Below, piece by piece: positions 7,886 to 51,918 of a stretch of DNA of 54,106 nucleotides. Both the position numbers and the translations under genes were made by a program. Each line of letters begins with the position of its first letter. Position 1 is the first letter of the stretch. The stretch is from Desulfobacteraceae bacterium (lineage in GTDB: Bacteria > Desulfobacterota > Desulfobacteria > Desulfobacterales > Desulfosarcinaceae), in assembly GCA_024230435.1 (NCBI GenBank), contig JAAERL010000487.1, forward strand, positions 1-54,106, written 5' to 3'. The notes under the pieces were generated by a model. That model was given only the letters and a program-made list of their open reading frames with translations. It did not search any database and was not told the origin of the DNA.

Positions 7886-8469
7886 ATAGAGTTTCTCCCA
7901 AATATATTAGCTCAGTCACAGTAAACAAATCCCGCCACAAAATATTAGCCCAAAGAAAAGCAATATGCATGCCGGCCGCCGCCTATCCTAACAGACAATT
8001 TAATGTTAGTTATTAATTTAAAAGGGGTATTAAGCCTTGTGAATTATCTTGCCAGAGCAAGATTAGAGAAAATTATATTATTTTAAGGTAATCCATGAAG
8101 GAATAAATAATACGAAAGTGCACATCCCGTATTTTTTAATGCTCAAAACAACTCTCTATCACAAGTATTTCCAAGGCTATTTCTAATTTTAACTCATCAT
8201 CCTCGGCAGGTATGCCGGCAATCTAAATGCCAATTCAGAAATGGCCGATTTGCATGATATCTAAATATATTTTAACGTAACAATTACAATGCGGATAAAC
8301 AAGGTTGAAAATGTAAAAAAAACAATCCATAATCTGCAGATTTGCGATTCTGACAAACTTGGATTTTAAAAATAACATATGATGTCAACATAACTAATGT
8401 TAATAAATTGAAATAAAATGCTAAGCGCGGTAATAGATGCTCTGCACAATGCGCAGGAGACATAATTGG
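7886..8469. other. AT-rich intergenic region
   Basis: About 580 bp between divergent genes (PilZ protein leftwards, barrel protein rightwards). It should hold the promoters of both. I see no convincing gene, hairpin or repeat. Confidence 0.4.
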
Positions 8470-11034
8470 ATGGATAGGCTAAAAAGAATCACACGATATT
8501 GGAGCCTGACCATACTTATTCTGATGGGATGGTGTTGTACAGCGGCAAACGCATTTCAGATGGTTGAAAAAGATCCCTGGTTTTTTTATTACCCCGAGAA
8601 TGAAAACACTATACTCCAAAACCTGATCGATGCCTGTGAACCCATCACATCCTTTTTAGCTTCCAAGGGTTTATCCGTGCCAACCCCGATGCATATTGTC
8701 TTAGATGATAAGCTGGATCTTCCCAGGCCGCAAGTTCAAGTCTACCCCCACCTTCAAATCCGAATTCCTGTCAGGGCGCCGGGCGTTTTGGAAAACGGTT
8801 TTACCGAACCTGATCCTTGGTTGTATTATCTGTTCACCGGACTAAGTCTGCAAGGCATCTATAGTGAACGTTCAGGGGTGCCCGGGGGTTTACATCATGT
8901 ATTCGGACAAATCATGTCGCCAAATTTAATTATGCCGGATTGGACCATCGACGGCATCTGCCACCTGCTCTACGAAGAATACATGAATCGGGCCGCTGTT
9001 ATGCCGCTATACCAAAGCATCAAGGGATCAGGCCCAATCCCCGATCTGGACAAGGTGAGCAATCATCCTGAAATCTGGCCCGGACGCTTGAGCTTTCGTA
9101 TCTATGGCAGACCATTTATTCTCTGGCTTAACGAGCAATACGGATGGGGAAAACTATATCTTTTTCTCCAGTTACACGGCAAGAGCATTATCCCGATAGA
9201 AATCGACCGTAAAGCCCAGAAGGTTTTTGGAAAAACCTGGAACCAGTTATGGCGGCTTTTCCGGGAACAACACACCCCCATTGAGACAAAGGGGGTTTAT
9301 GACCCAATATATGGTTATTGGCCGAAACCGTTTGTTTATTGGAATGAAACCGGCGTTTATCCGGGCCTCATACAGACTGCAATCAGGGGGCGATACGGAT
9401 TTGTGGATTCGGAAGGCTGGCTTTGGCTGAACATTTTTGAAAATGGAAAATCCCAACTGCTCAAGCAAAAAAAAGATACCGTACGAAGATCCGAACGTGA
9501 ACATGTGTGGGATCCGGGGCCAGGCCAAGTGGCCGTGACACGCAAAGGCAGCAGTCCTTTTTTGATAGTAGGTGCGGTCATCAGGGATGATGACTTGCCA
9601 AAGGATGACTTACCCGGATCTTTGGAAAAACAAATTGACATAGAGCAACGGCTGATACCGGCTCCACCTGGAACTATACAGCTTTCCGGACCGGTCATGG
9701 ATGAAAAAGGACGCATTGTTGCAGCCGGTAACACGAATGGCAATTGGGACATCTGGCTTTATGATAAACGCTGGCGCCGGCTAACCACCGCTTATAGCAT
9801 TGAAATGGATCCCTGGCTGTCAGACGGTAAGTTGTTTTACACATCCAATTACAGTGGAAAATTTCAAATTCATACGGGAAATATGGTTCAGCTCACCCAT
9901 TCGCACACGGCTGCGGCTTTTCCAAGACAATATAGCTATCTTGAATTAGGCGATAGCGGCTGGAAAAAAATTCCTTTATCCCCAAGTCAATATTCGATGT
10001 TGTCTGATGTTAAATCTGCAAAGCAGGAAAAAGAAACCGCGCCCCGGCAAATGGCCTTGCCCTACAGGGACTATTCTGCCTTTCGCAGTATCCGGTCTAA
10101 TTATCTTCTACCGGACTTGTTTATTGGTGATGATGATTTTCAATTCGGCATCTCAACTCAGGCAACCGATGTCAGCAAAAATTACTCCTGGGATACTGGA
10201 CTGAGGTATTCCTTGGACGAAAAGGCAATATCCTGGCGCTTAGGTGGTCAGGCCAAACAAATCAAGGCCCGCGCCACGCATTACCGCCTGGGCTACACCA
10301 CCGAAAGACAAATGAGCGTAAAAGAAAAACGCTATGAGATCAAAACCGGCTGGAATCCGCAAATACTGGATGATCTTGAAATAGCTGCTAATTGGCGCTG
10401 GTATGCTCGCACTACAGAATCGGCGCAATCAGAACAGGAATGGTGGGCGTCGCTGAACCATCAAACCGGAACCGGTAATCTGCAAACTCAGATAACGTTG
10501 GATCTGTTTGCTCAAGGCAGTCAATCCGCCTATGGAAAAGCGACATACTGGCTTGGTCAAAAAATAATTACTGTAATGGGCCTGCAGGCCGGAAAAACCT
10601 GGGGAGATTTACTCCCGGGGCATAATAGCTTCCGAATTGGGGGCAACAGCGGTGAGGGATTTTTTACCAAACGCCCATCCAGGCTGTTTGCCTTGCGGGG
10701 TTTTAAGTCCAACTGCCTGGATTCGGGACTGGCCGCAACGGGGAATATTGAAATTTATTGGCCTCTGGTACGCTTGCAAACCGGCTACAAAACACTGCCG
10801 CTGTTTTTACATAACATTAGTGTGGGTACCTTCGTAGACAGCGGCTTTTCAGAAAAAACTACCGGCAGCCACGATTTTTTGTTAAGCAGCGGTTTTGAAA
10901 TTATTACCGGTCTGGAACTTGCCTGGGGTTTCATGGCAGATTTTCGATTTGGCTGGGCCTGGCCACTGGTACAGCCCGATGATTTCGATGAATCGGGAGT
11001 GATCTTTCTCCTGCAAATCGGACGGCCCATGTAA
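8470..11034 (+). CDS. Exported protein: MA-peptidase-like, beta-propeller-like and Omp85-type barrel regions
   Basis: A start at 8470 is preferred because AGGAGA lies 9 bp upstream; an in-frame ATG at 8437 lacks such a site. This gives 854 residues. A signal peptide (basic RLKRITR, hydrophobic core, cleavage near ANA-FQ) is followed by a region resembling peptidase-MA-like domains, but the HExxH zinc motif is missing (DGICHLLYEEY instead). The middle (about 290-530) has beta-propeller-like repeats such as NWDIWLYDKRWRRLT. The last 300 residues alternate in beta-barrel style and contain ALRGF near residue 743, like the (V/L)RGF motif of BamA/TamA/FhaC barrels. It is probably a surface or outer-membrane protein; substrate and role are unknown. 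Confidence 0.7.
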   Translation: MDRLKRITRYWSLTILILMGWCCTAANAFQMVEKDPWFFYYPENENTILQNLIDACEPITSFLASKGLSVPTPMHIVLDDKLDLPRPQVQVYPHLQIRIPVRAPGVLENGFTEPDPWLYYLFTGLSLQGIYSERSGVPGGLHHVFGQIMSPNLIMPDWTIDGICHLLYEEYMNRAAVMPLYQSIKGSGPIPDLDKVSNHPEIWPGRLSFRIYGRPFILWLNEQYGWGKLYLFLQLHGKSIIPIEIDRKAQKVFGKTWNQLWRLFREQHTPIETKGVYDPIYGYWPKPFVYWNETGVYPGLIQTAIRGRYGFVDSEGWLWLNIFENGKSQLLKQKKDTVRRSEREHVWDPGPGQVAVTRKGSSPFLIVGAVIRDDDLPKDDLPGSLEKQIDIEQRLIPAPPGTIQLSGPVMDEKGRIVAAGNTNGNWDIWLYDKRWRRLTTAYSIEMDPWLSDGKLFYTSNYSGKFQIHTGNMVQLTHSHTAAAFPRQYSYLELGDSGWKKIPLSPSQYSMLSDVKSAKQEKETAPRQMALPYRDYSAFRSIRSNYLLPDLFIGDDDFQFGISTQATDVSKNYSWDTGLRYSLDEKAISWRLGGQAKQIKARATHYRLGYTTERQMSVKEKRYEIKTGWNPQILDDLEIAANWRWYARTTESAQSEQEWWASLNHQTGTGNLQTQITLDLFAQGSQSAYGKATYWLGQKIITVMGLQAGKTWGDLLPGHNSFRIGGNSGEGFFTKRPSRLFALRGFKSNCLDSGLAATGNIEIYWPLVRLQTGYKTLPLFLHNISVGTFVDSGFSEKTTGSHDFLLSSGFEIITGLELAWGFMADFRFGWAWPLVQPDDFDESGVIFLLQIGRPM

Positions 11035-38684: not shown

Positions 38685-39072
38685 GGTTTGCTGCTGGTGA
38701 AACTATTCAATAGAAAATATATAGGTAGTGCTTCATATGCAAGAATGGTATAATAGATCAAATATATTTATTGTTTTTAAATAGTTATGTAAAGAAATTT
38801 CAACGGGATAAATTAACTCAAAAAATGTTCGAGCCCTTGGCATAGGGATTTGATAGATTCTGGGTGCGTCCCACTTTTAGGGTCGTAGAAGACCCTTAAG
38901 AAAAGAAAATCTGAGGTTTTTAAGCTGGCCGTATTATACGAAACCAGCAAAAATACTAAAATCATAAGATGTTATAAGTTTTGATAAGTACTTGCCTGAA
39001 AGGGATGGTGTAAGGTCCGGGTCCGCAACTTCGTCTGATTTGAACACAATCTTATCAAACGGAGGTGATCTG
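38685..39072. other. Intergenic region upstream of the DUF3179 gene
   Basis: About 390 bp, AT-rich. It contains a small hairpin AGGGTC-GTAGAA-GACCCT near 38878-38895 and ends in the GGAGGTGAT ribosome site for the ATG at 39073. No gene is evident. Confidence 0.35.
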
Positions 39073-39982
39073 ATGCGAACGTTGCTTTTATTTTTGGTTG
39101 CGGCAATGACAATGGTTTTAATGCTGACCGGGTTCAGCCTGGACAGTTCCATTGTTCCAAAAGATGAAATTTTATCGGGCGGGCCGCCCAAAGATGGAAT
39201 TCCGGCCTTGCTGGAACCCGCGTTTGTTGCGGCCGGTAAGCAGTCGTTTTTAGATCCTGAAGATCAGGTTTTAGGTGTGGTTGCCGATGGCGTGGTCAAA
39301 GCTTATCCCATTAAGATTCTTACCTGGCATGAGGCAGTCAATGACTCGATAAACGAACAATCCTTTGTAGTTACGTACTGACCGCTGACGCAAACGGTAG
39401 TGGTCTACTCCCGCCAGGTGGATGACAGGAAATTGTCTTTCGGTATCTCGGGGCGTCTTTACAAAAGCAATGTGCTGTTGTACGACCATCAAACGGAAAG
39501 TTTATGGTCTCAGCTTATGTCAAAGGCCGTCAGTGGTCCCCTGGCGGGCAGACAGCTTAAGCAGATTCAATCCGAGCTTGTGAGCTGGAAACATTGGGCA
39601 GAAAAACACCCCCGTACGCTTGTGCTTTCAACTCAAACAGGTTACTCACGCAACTATGATATCGATCCATATAAAGACTATTACCATATTGGCCAGTTGA
39701 TGTTTCCGGTGGGGCGCGTGCGCCATGATTTATCTGTAAAGGAGCATGTACTGGGCATTTCGCTCAATGGGCAATCAAAAGCCTACGCGCTGTCGCGCGT
39801 TGAAGCAAAAAGGCGGGACAATCAATGATATAATCGGCGGAGCCGATATTATCATTGAAGTAAACACCCAGGGGCAAATCCAGTCCGTCCGGCACGCTCA
39901 AGGTGACGCCATTGCCCATATTTATGCCTACTGGTTCGCTTGGCAGGCGTTTTATCCGCAGACGAAAGTGTATAAACCATAA
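39073..39982 (+). CDS. DUF3179 protein, candidate selenoprotein, with a downstream +1 frame disruption
   Basis: ATG 39073 has a perfect GGAGGTGAT site. An N-terminal signal peptide leads into DUF3179 sequence (VLGVVADGVVKAYPIKILTWHEAVND). At the family motif VTYCPLxxT the conserved Cys codon is TGA (39379-39381): FVVTY-TGA-PLTQTVVVYSRQV. The same frame continues with SGRLYKSNVLLYDHQTESLWSQ, so the TGA may encode selenocysteine. A second break lies at the A5 run 39807-39811: after SRVEAK the homologous GGTINDIIGGAD...WFAWQAFYPQTKVY continues one base on. Repaired length is about 302 residues. It is either a selenoprotein with a homopolymer error or a decaying gene. DUF3179 function is unknown. 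Confidence 0.65.
39379..39425 (+). promoter_or_regulatory. Possible bacterial SECIS region after the TGA of the DUF3179 gene
   Basis: Directly after TGA, ACCGCT (39381-39386) pairs with AGTGGT (39399-39404) and inner CG with CG around a CAAA loop. A second small hairpin with a loop starting in G (TCCC-GCCAG-GTGGA) lies about 31 nt after TGA, inside the usual 16-37 nt window for bacterial SECIS loops. Both were paired by eye only. Confidence 0.3.
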
Positions 39983-50859: not shown

Positions 50860-51918
50860 TATGAAACAAAGCAGGGTTGTTGAGTCTTTGGCGCAAACCC
50901 GTCCGATGTTTGCATATGCCGGTGTGCCCGTCTCTTCTAAGGCCTGAGTTAAAGAGTTTGCCTGGTCAGACGGCACGGCAATAAGCAACCCTCCGCTGGT
51001 TTGCGGGTCGTAAAGGATTTGGCGATGCCAGTCTTTAAGGGGATTGATGAACCTGACATGTTTTTCAACGAGTTTTTTGTTGAAATCGTTAACACCGGTT
51101 GTGACACCTTTGCGATACATTTCAAGCGCTTCAGGCATAATCGGCAAAGCCTTAATGTCAATGTTGAGACAAACATTTGAAGCCTTTGCCATCTCATGGG
51201 CGTGACCGGCCAGACCGAAGCCTGTGACATCCGTTACGGCGTGAACGGTGAAAGAACGCAGAACTTCGGCAGCCGCTTTATTCAGATGCAAAAGGGTATC
51301 CAGGCAGGTTTGCATGGCTGAGGGGGAAACCCGGTTTTTTAGGTTGGCGTTAAACAGTACACCGCTTCCAATAGGCTTGGTCAACACCAAATTGTCGCCG
51401 GGCTGAGCCCCCGCATTTGTCCAGTATTTTTCAGGGTGTACGATGCCGACAACAGATAAACCGAATTTGGGTTCACTATCATCAACAGAGTGCCCGCCTG
51501 CCAGCACAGCCCCGGATTCCGTGATTTTATCCATTGCACCGCTGATGATCCGGTGCAAATTATCCGGAGGCAGTTTTTGAGAAGGAAAGCTCACCAGGTT
51601 AAGGCAGACCTTAGGCTCGCCGCCCATGGCGTAAACGTCACTCAGGGCGTTGGCTGCTGCGATTTGGCCAAAAATAAAAGGATCGTTTACCGGCGGGGTG
51701 ATAAAATCAGCCGTCACCACAACGGCAAGTTCTTCGGTAAGACGGTAGATGCCCGCGTCATCATTGGTGTTATAGCCGACCAATAAATCAGGATCATTTA
51801 CTTTCGGTAAAGCAGCAAGAAGTCTTCCGAGCCCGACCGGGTCGATTTTCGCCGCTCAGCCGCAGGTCTTGGACAAGCTTTGCAATGTCGGTTTTCGTAA
51901 TGATTTTATCAGGGACAT
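50857..51918 (-). CDS. selD: Selenophosphate synthase containing selenocysteine
   Basis: SelD makes selenophosphate from selenide and ATP. A stop-free reading would start only at TTG 51783, losing the N terminus. Reading the in-frame TGA at 51858-51856 as selenocysteine gives 353 residues from ATG 51918, the usual length. The active site then reads KTCGUAAKIDP with U21 and K24, matching E. coli C17 and K20 in spacing. Downstream motifs include VGYNTNDDAG, ADFITPPVNDPFIFGQIAAANALSDVYAMGG (in part) and GGHSVDDSEPKFG. A TGA codon and a plausible SECIS hairpin follow each other. No strong ribosome site precedes ATG 51918. No other selenium genes lie in the window. Confidence 0.93.
51828..51858 (-). 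promoter_or_regulatory. SECIS-like hairpin after the selD TGA
   Basis: On the minus strand TGA is followed 11-17 nt later by CGACCC-GGTC-GGG(C)TCG: a six-pair stem with one bulged C and a GGTC loop. The loop begins 17 nt after the TGA, within the 16-37 nt expected for bacterial SECIS elements, and starts with the G favoured there. Confidence 0.6.

Follow-up and report, generated by a model that had tools for sequence, protein, structure and literature searches.

The DUF3179 gene at 39073-39982 of the window (the whole stretch of 54,106 nucleotides analyzed here, from a Desulfobacteraceae bacterium) looks like a declining member of an already listed selenoprotein family and not like a new selenoprotein. 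Comparison with relatives indicates that its internal TGA (39379-39381) is an inherited, long-conserved selenocysteine (Sec) codon and not a random nonsense mutation, and we consider it likely that this copy is a real Sec gene of the known DUF3179 family, recently inactivated in this lineage. It appears to be a selenoprotein gene at an early stage of being lost, in which one substitution damages both the protein and the SECIS-type hairpin.

A DUF3179 gene with an internal TGA and a broken frame

The gene belongs to DUF3179 (PF11376), starts with an ATG at 39073 and carries its TGA within SFVVTY-TGA-PLTQTVVVYSR; the same frame stays open past this codon up to a second TGA at 39826-39828. With the first TGA counted as a residue, 39073-39828 matches profile positions 1-209 (E=2.3e-77), confirming the claim of the first-pass annotation that a DUF3179 gene has TGA at its conserved Cys codon and that homology resumes at once behind it. 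The end of the domain sits in another frame, where 39839-39979 matches profile positions 258-292 (E=1.9e-5) with 24.7 bits, just below the family cut-off of 27 bits. As homology is spread over two frames (profile 1-209, then 258-292), the internal TGA and a second disruption are both present in the deposited sequence, and the disruption earlier proposed in the A run is indeed found. A complete reading frame after the UGA is absent from this copy, which is the only DUF3179 locus of its own genome (search at E 0.001) and whose protein is 60% identical to the DUF3179 of G020, a genome of the same family. The features of the locus are as follows:

39061-39071 (+): strong ribosome-binding site (ggaggtgatct) directly upstream of the start codon, read from the sequence
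39073-39378 (+): DUF3179 codons 1-102, including a hydrophobic signal-like N-terminus (translation, profile match, alignment)
39379-39381 (+): TGA, putative ancestral selenocysteine codon, codon 103, in the motif U-P-L-T (UxxT) (comparison with relatives)
39382-39828 (+): DUF3179 in frame, with homology to about codon 244-246 and then out-of-frame residues up to the TGA at 39826-39828
39397-39399 (+): codon 109, Val (alignment)
39805-39811 (+): frame break at the A run 39807-39811; homology goes on in another frame
39839-39982 (+): C-terminal end of DUF3179 (...AYWFAWQAFYPQTKVYKP stop), in a frame that differs from that of the start (profile match, comparison with relatives)

The TGA is shared with the nearest relatives

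A contig search for relatives gave 116 confirmed DUF3179 loci, of which 80 were kept (L031-L110). The search of related genomes for TGA at the same codon, as proposed in the first-pass annotation, found it in 28 of these 80 relatives, the remaining 52 encoding Cys there (28 TGA and 50 Cys read by pattern; L075 and L100, both Cys, by eye). All 18 nearest loci (L031-L048) have TGA, including those of SURF_4 Desulfobacteraceae and of two Olavius-associated genomes. The third residue after the codon also differs between the two types, being T (21), S (4) or A (3) in the 28 TGA forms vs the second Cys of the CxxC motif (CPLC) in 52 of 52 Cys forms. Sec and this second Cys were thus mutually exclusive, in 80 rows that share kinship and whose counts (28/28 without it, 52/52 with it) are hence not independent. 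This provides a testable point, namely that wherever one of the 80 DUF3179 relatives read has Sec, the second Cys of CxxC has been lost. Moreover, in a tree of 40 proteins, computed without the columns around the Sec/Cys codon, the window protein falls inside a Sec-only clade of 17 rows (SH-aLRT 99).

These results bear on the alternative of an ordinary Cys-type DUF3179 pseudogene in which a nonsense mutation produced the TGA by chance. A second disruption in the window copy would be in line with such a pseudogene, but the 18 nearest relatives carry TGA at the very same codon, and the window copy carries PLTQT, as is typical of Sec-type proteins, and clusters with these, whereas all 52 Cys forms have CxxC. 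We consider a chance mutation extremely improbable, as the first-pass annotation had argued; far from all encoding Cys, the close relatives have TGA, and the Sec machinery is present. The same genome contains tRNA-Sec (73.4 bits), SelB (376 bits) and SelA (613 bits), and the Sec-type SelD reported for the window was found again:

50962-51885 (-): selD, selenophosphate synthase, with one internal TGA (366 bits)

There are in fact two SelD genes in this genome, each with one internal TGA, the second being on contig C1057 (4210-5136, minus strand). An Rfam scan of the window at gathering thresholds gave no match, and an ARAGORN scan of the window no tRNA.

DUF3179 is a listed selenoprotein family

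The comparison confirms the inherited Sec codon, but DUF3179 can no longer be claimed as a new selenoprotein family. "DUF3179 domain-containing protein, pfam11376, UxxC/T" appears in the selenoprotein tables of a pair of reviews (PMC9312934; PMC13188914), the first of which credits the entry to Zhang & Gladyshev 2007, and a DUF3179 gene is named in a table of a further paper (PMC9230427). On the strength of these tables a new family is ruled out, and the candidate new selenoprotein of the first-pass annotation is not borne out. A limited search of the DUF3179 and selenoprotein literature, with the 2007 family paper outside it, found no mention of this broken copy or of the short subfamily described below.

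The window copy shares with the listed Sec-type family the Pfam family, the TGA at the conserved Cys and the UxxT motif, and its relatives have a SECIS-type hairpin. Those relatives are deltaproteobacterial, L033 and L047 being the ones from Olavius-associated genomes. The window copy differs from the listed family by its frame break, by a Val in place of an invariant Gly and by a broken SECIS pair. The Cys-type DUF3179 proteins of Nitrospira, Nitrospina, Photobacterium, Marinobacter and others belong to the same Pfam family, and the 13 Cys-type rows of the alignment share 37-48% identity with L011, the nearest Sec relative. We also noticed a divergent DUF3179, only 22% identical to L011, with TGA in a UxxC setting (ITF-U-VVCNSG; L026:1147-2058, minus strand).

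The SECIS-type hairpin

The 19 nearest-type TGA relatives have a hairpin at nt 17-35 counted from the T of TGA, with loops such as GGUCU or CGUGU. Its place in the window is the following:

39395-39413 (+): where relatives have their SECIS-type hairpin; counted from the TGA, nt 17-23 form the stem with nt 29-35 around the loop GGUCU

Results showed that the region nt 13-42 folds more stably in TGA copies, with a mean minimum free energy (MFE) of -11.1 kcal/mol in 54 TGA copies vs -6.3 kcal/mol in 52 Cys copies (Mann-Whitney p 4e-11), the mean of -11.1 and the p value including L036 misplaced at -0.9, properly -6.0. The 54 and 52 copies are what is left of 118 loci after removal of 8 duplicates and of 4 without the codon. 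A smaller set of 31 TGA vs 39 Cys copies, obtained with a pattern that missed several loci (among them UPLA/UPLS forms), gave -10.6 vs -6.2 (p 4e-7). The ranges of the two types overlap, several Cys copies reaching -11, and the contrast confounds descent with function. It is this folding contrast between TGA and Cys copies that supports a putative SECIS element. Covariation was discarded as proof of it, considering that in the main group 0 pairs are changed on both sides and that the stem is coding, with residues nearly fixed.

The window copy has the weakest fold of nt 13-42 among TGA copies (-5.0) once L036 is set at -6.0. Pair 20-32 (window 39398 with 39410) is G-C in 19 of 20 main-group sequences and non-standard only in the window, where the mean stem-pair probability is 0.07 vs 0.15-1.0 in the other 19 sequences. 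The energy of the 19-nt hairpin is -3.4 kcal/mol in the window and between -2.8 and -5.0 in six of the 19 relatives; hairpin energy alone does not set the window copy apart. A covariance model built from the 19 relatives gives the window element 47.3 bits, against 50.9-64.6 for its own members, with lower scores for the more distant full-frame TGA copies L058 (35.4), L048 (15.4) and L107 (12.5). The same model found no match at the Cys codon of five Cys-type loci (L050, L055, L063, L086 and L098). L131-L134, with scores equal to those of the model members L046, L041, L042 and L047, are near-copies of these and provide no independent test.

The SECIS of E. coli fdhF has the loop GGUCU, common to the window and several relatives, whereas the window stem carries an internal mismatch. 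Bacterial SECIS criteria given in one review ask for a loop of 3-9 nt with a G in the first two places, a spacing of 16-37 nt, an upper stem of 4-16 bp and an MFE <= -7.5 (PMC13188914). The window element agrees with these in loop and spacing (20 nt), while its unbroken loop-adjacent stem (3 bp) and its energy are both short of them; for the same 19-nt hairpin, the -7.5 threshold is reached by 12 of the 19 relatives. The check for a SECIS after the TGA gave a mixed answer, and the site of the relatives' hairpin is damaged in the window copy. The hairpin that the first-pass annotation placed directly after the TGA does form when nt 1-45 are folded at minimum energy, but it differs from the one seen in the relatives.

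Signs of decay and the nature of the frame break

Residue 109 is Gly in all 39 other aligned DUF3179 proteins and Val in the window copy, and one and the same base change accounts for this replacement and for the loss of SECIS pair 20-32. Over the 236 columns upstream of the frame break, with invariance judged on the other 16 Sec-type proteins, the window protein shows 6 private violations of otherwise invariant columns vs 0-3 for each of those 16. In addition, its end branch (0.74) is the longest of its clade in the 40-protein tree. Conserved sites of this copy have thus been hit independently at least twice, by the frame break and by the change to Val 109 with the broken pair, and the copy is probably no longer functional. 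Considering that the protein is mostly well conserved, that 5 of the 6 private residues are also seen in other DUF3179 proteins and that the ribosome-binding site is intact, the decay is either very recent or not real.

The main rival to recent inactivation is a gene that is intact and functional in the cell and encodes an ordinary DUF3179 selenoprotein of the known family, its frame break being an artifact of sequencing or assembly. The homology that restarts right past the break, the well-conserved C-terminus, the intact ribosome-binding site, the Sec machinery of the genome and a SECIS-type element still recognized by the covariance model would all fit with an intact gene, and the assembly is fragmented (1238 contigs). 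A single error, however, leaves unexplained the change of residue 109 with its broken SECIS pair, as well as the excess of private changes and the long branch, and broken DUF3179 copies are also found in related genomes. We also scanned the 36 other ORFs of the window, seven of which have no family match; none of the 29 with a match, several of which cover only part of the profile, has a domain split over two frames, and this speaks against many errors while being compatible with a single one. Altogether, we regard an error as rather unlikely.

It could also be proposed that the gene is alive and doubly recoded, with Sec inserted at the UGA and, at the A run, either programmed frameshifting or slippage during transcription; one full-length protein would then require two recoding events. 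The break does sit on an A run followed by AGG-C, and the downstream frame is conserved. On the contrary, L031, L032 and L040 read straight through in one frame, the first two without an A run at this place and L040 with one nearby and its frame kept, and the SECIS-type hairpin of the window copy is weakened, so that double recoding has in our opinion next to no probability.

Recent inactivation of a Sec gene, the reading that we prefer, suggests the following course. In the ancestor, UGA 103, whose conservation is directly observed, would have been decoded as selenocysteine by SelB and tRNA-Sec under the direction of the hairpin 16-35 nt downstream. The product, about 300 residues long, would have been exported and would have carried Sec instead of a CxxC motif, an exported redox role being suggested because of the signal-like N-terminus and the exchange between Sec and CxxC. 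In this lineage, the frame would then have been broken recently, about 140 codons past the Sec codon, and a single substitution would have removed the invariant Gly and opened the SECIS stem pair. Today the gene may yield at most a fragment of 102 residues or, rarely, a Sec protein with a wrong C-terminus.

Broken copies in related genomes

Among the 28 genomes listed from the same family as the source (G001-G028), 6 have a DUF3179 match. Three of these are of the short form (G005, G021 and, at a contig end, G013) and three of the long form, intact in G020 and broken in G023 and G004. In G023 (L027) the Sec codon is no longer TGA, and there are an internal deletion and a new stop, while G004 (L028) has only the C-terminal part, split over two frames. 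Including the window, this family yielded 4 long-form copies, 3 of them broken, and G023 and G004 appear to hold later stages of the loss of the DUF3179 gene. Some related genomes keep further decayed copies, and most have none.

Fifteen long-form loci were fetched from the order, a count that excludes the divergent L026 and nine further matches without a fetched locus: 9 are full length, 1 is cut at a contig end (L133) and 5 are broken or truncated or apparently so (the window, L018, L027, L028 and L136). L018 (G086) and L136 (G320), from two other families of the order, are long-form copies apparently truncated inside contigs; they suggest recurrent loss of the DUF3179 gene across the order.

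Neighbors and fold

Gene neighbors vary between loci (10 ORFs of 8 loci scanned), and operon context was dropped as a clue to function. The ABC ATPase and MacB permease genes that follow the window copy have weak matches (25-37% identity) near L014, L033/L125, L018 and L122, and the HlyD gene downstream of it has no match among 33 relative loci. Elsewhere in the window, 8437-11034 is an open frame of 865 codons without a Pfam match at E 0.001.

No PDB sequence relative of DUF3179 was significant (best E 1.1). A confident AlphaFold model of the near relative L031 (pLDDT 86, pTM 0.84) gave nothing at E 0.001 or below in Foldseek. The best VIA-align match was weak (Z 4.9, 87 residues, 3.3 A), between model residues 71-171 and the Rieske ferredoxin 3gce, and such a weak structural match is proof of neither likeness nor a new fold. 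A Rieske-type [2Fe-2S] relation had no support when profiles were compared with those of 30 Rieske domains (probability under 1%); the Rieske family itself is absent from the genome at E 0.001. In model residues 71-171 and 211-299, the weak structural matches were to this Rieske ferredoxin and to WWE domains (about Z 3.5).

A short DUF3179 subfamily

The same order also harbors a short form of DUF3179 of about 187-215 aa (L017, L019-L025, L030, L135 and L137-L147), in which all 21 copies read have TGA; in L023 and L025 the TGA was read separately, and L147, with one stop there by eye, is counted as TGA. The other 18 loci follow a strict pattern, all with TGA and with 85 residues after it, and their third residue is V in 16 and A in 2, i.e., U-P-L-V/A. 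This UxxV/A differs from the UxxC/T given in the tables of the reviews (PMC9312934; PMC13188914). The short form has a hairpin as well (GCGGCU...AGCCGC), in a register that differs from that of the long form.
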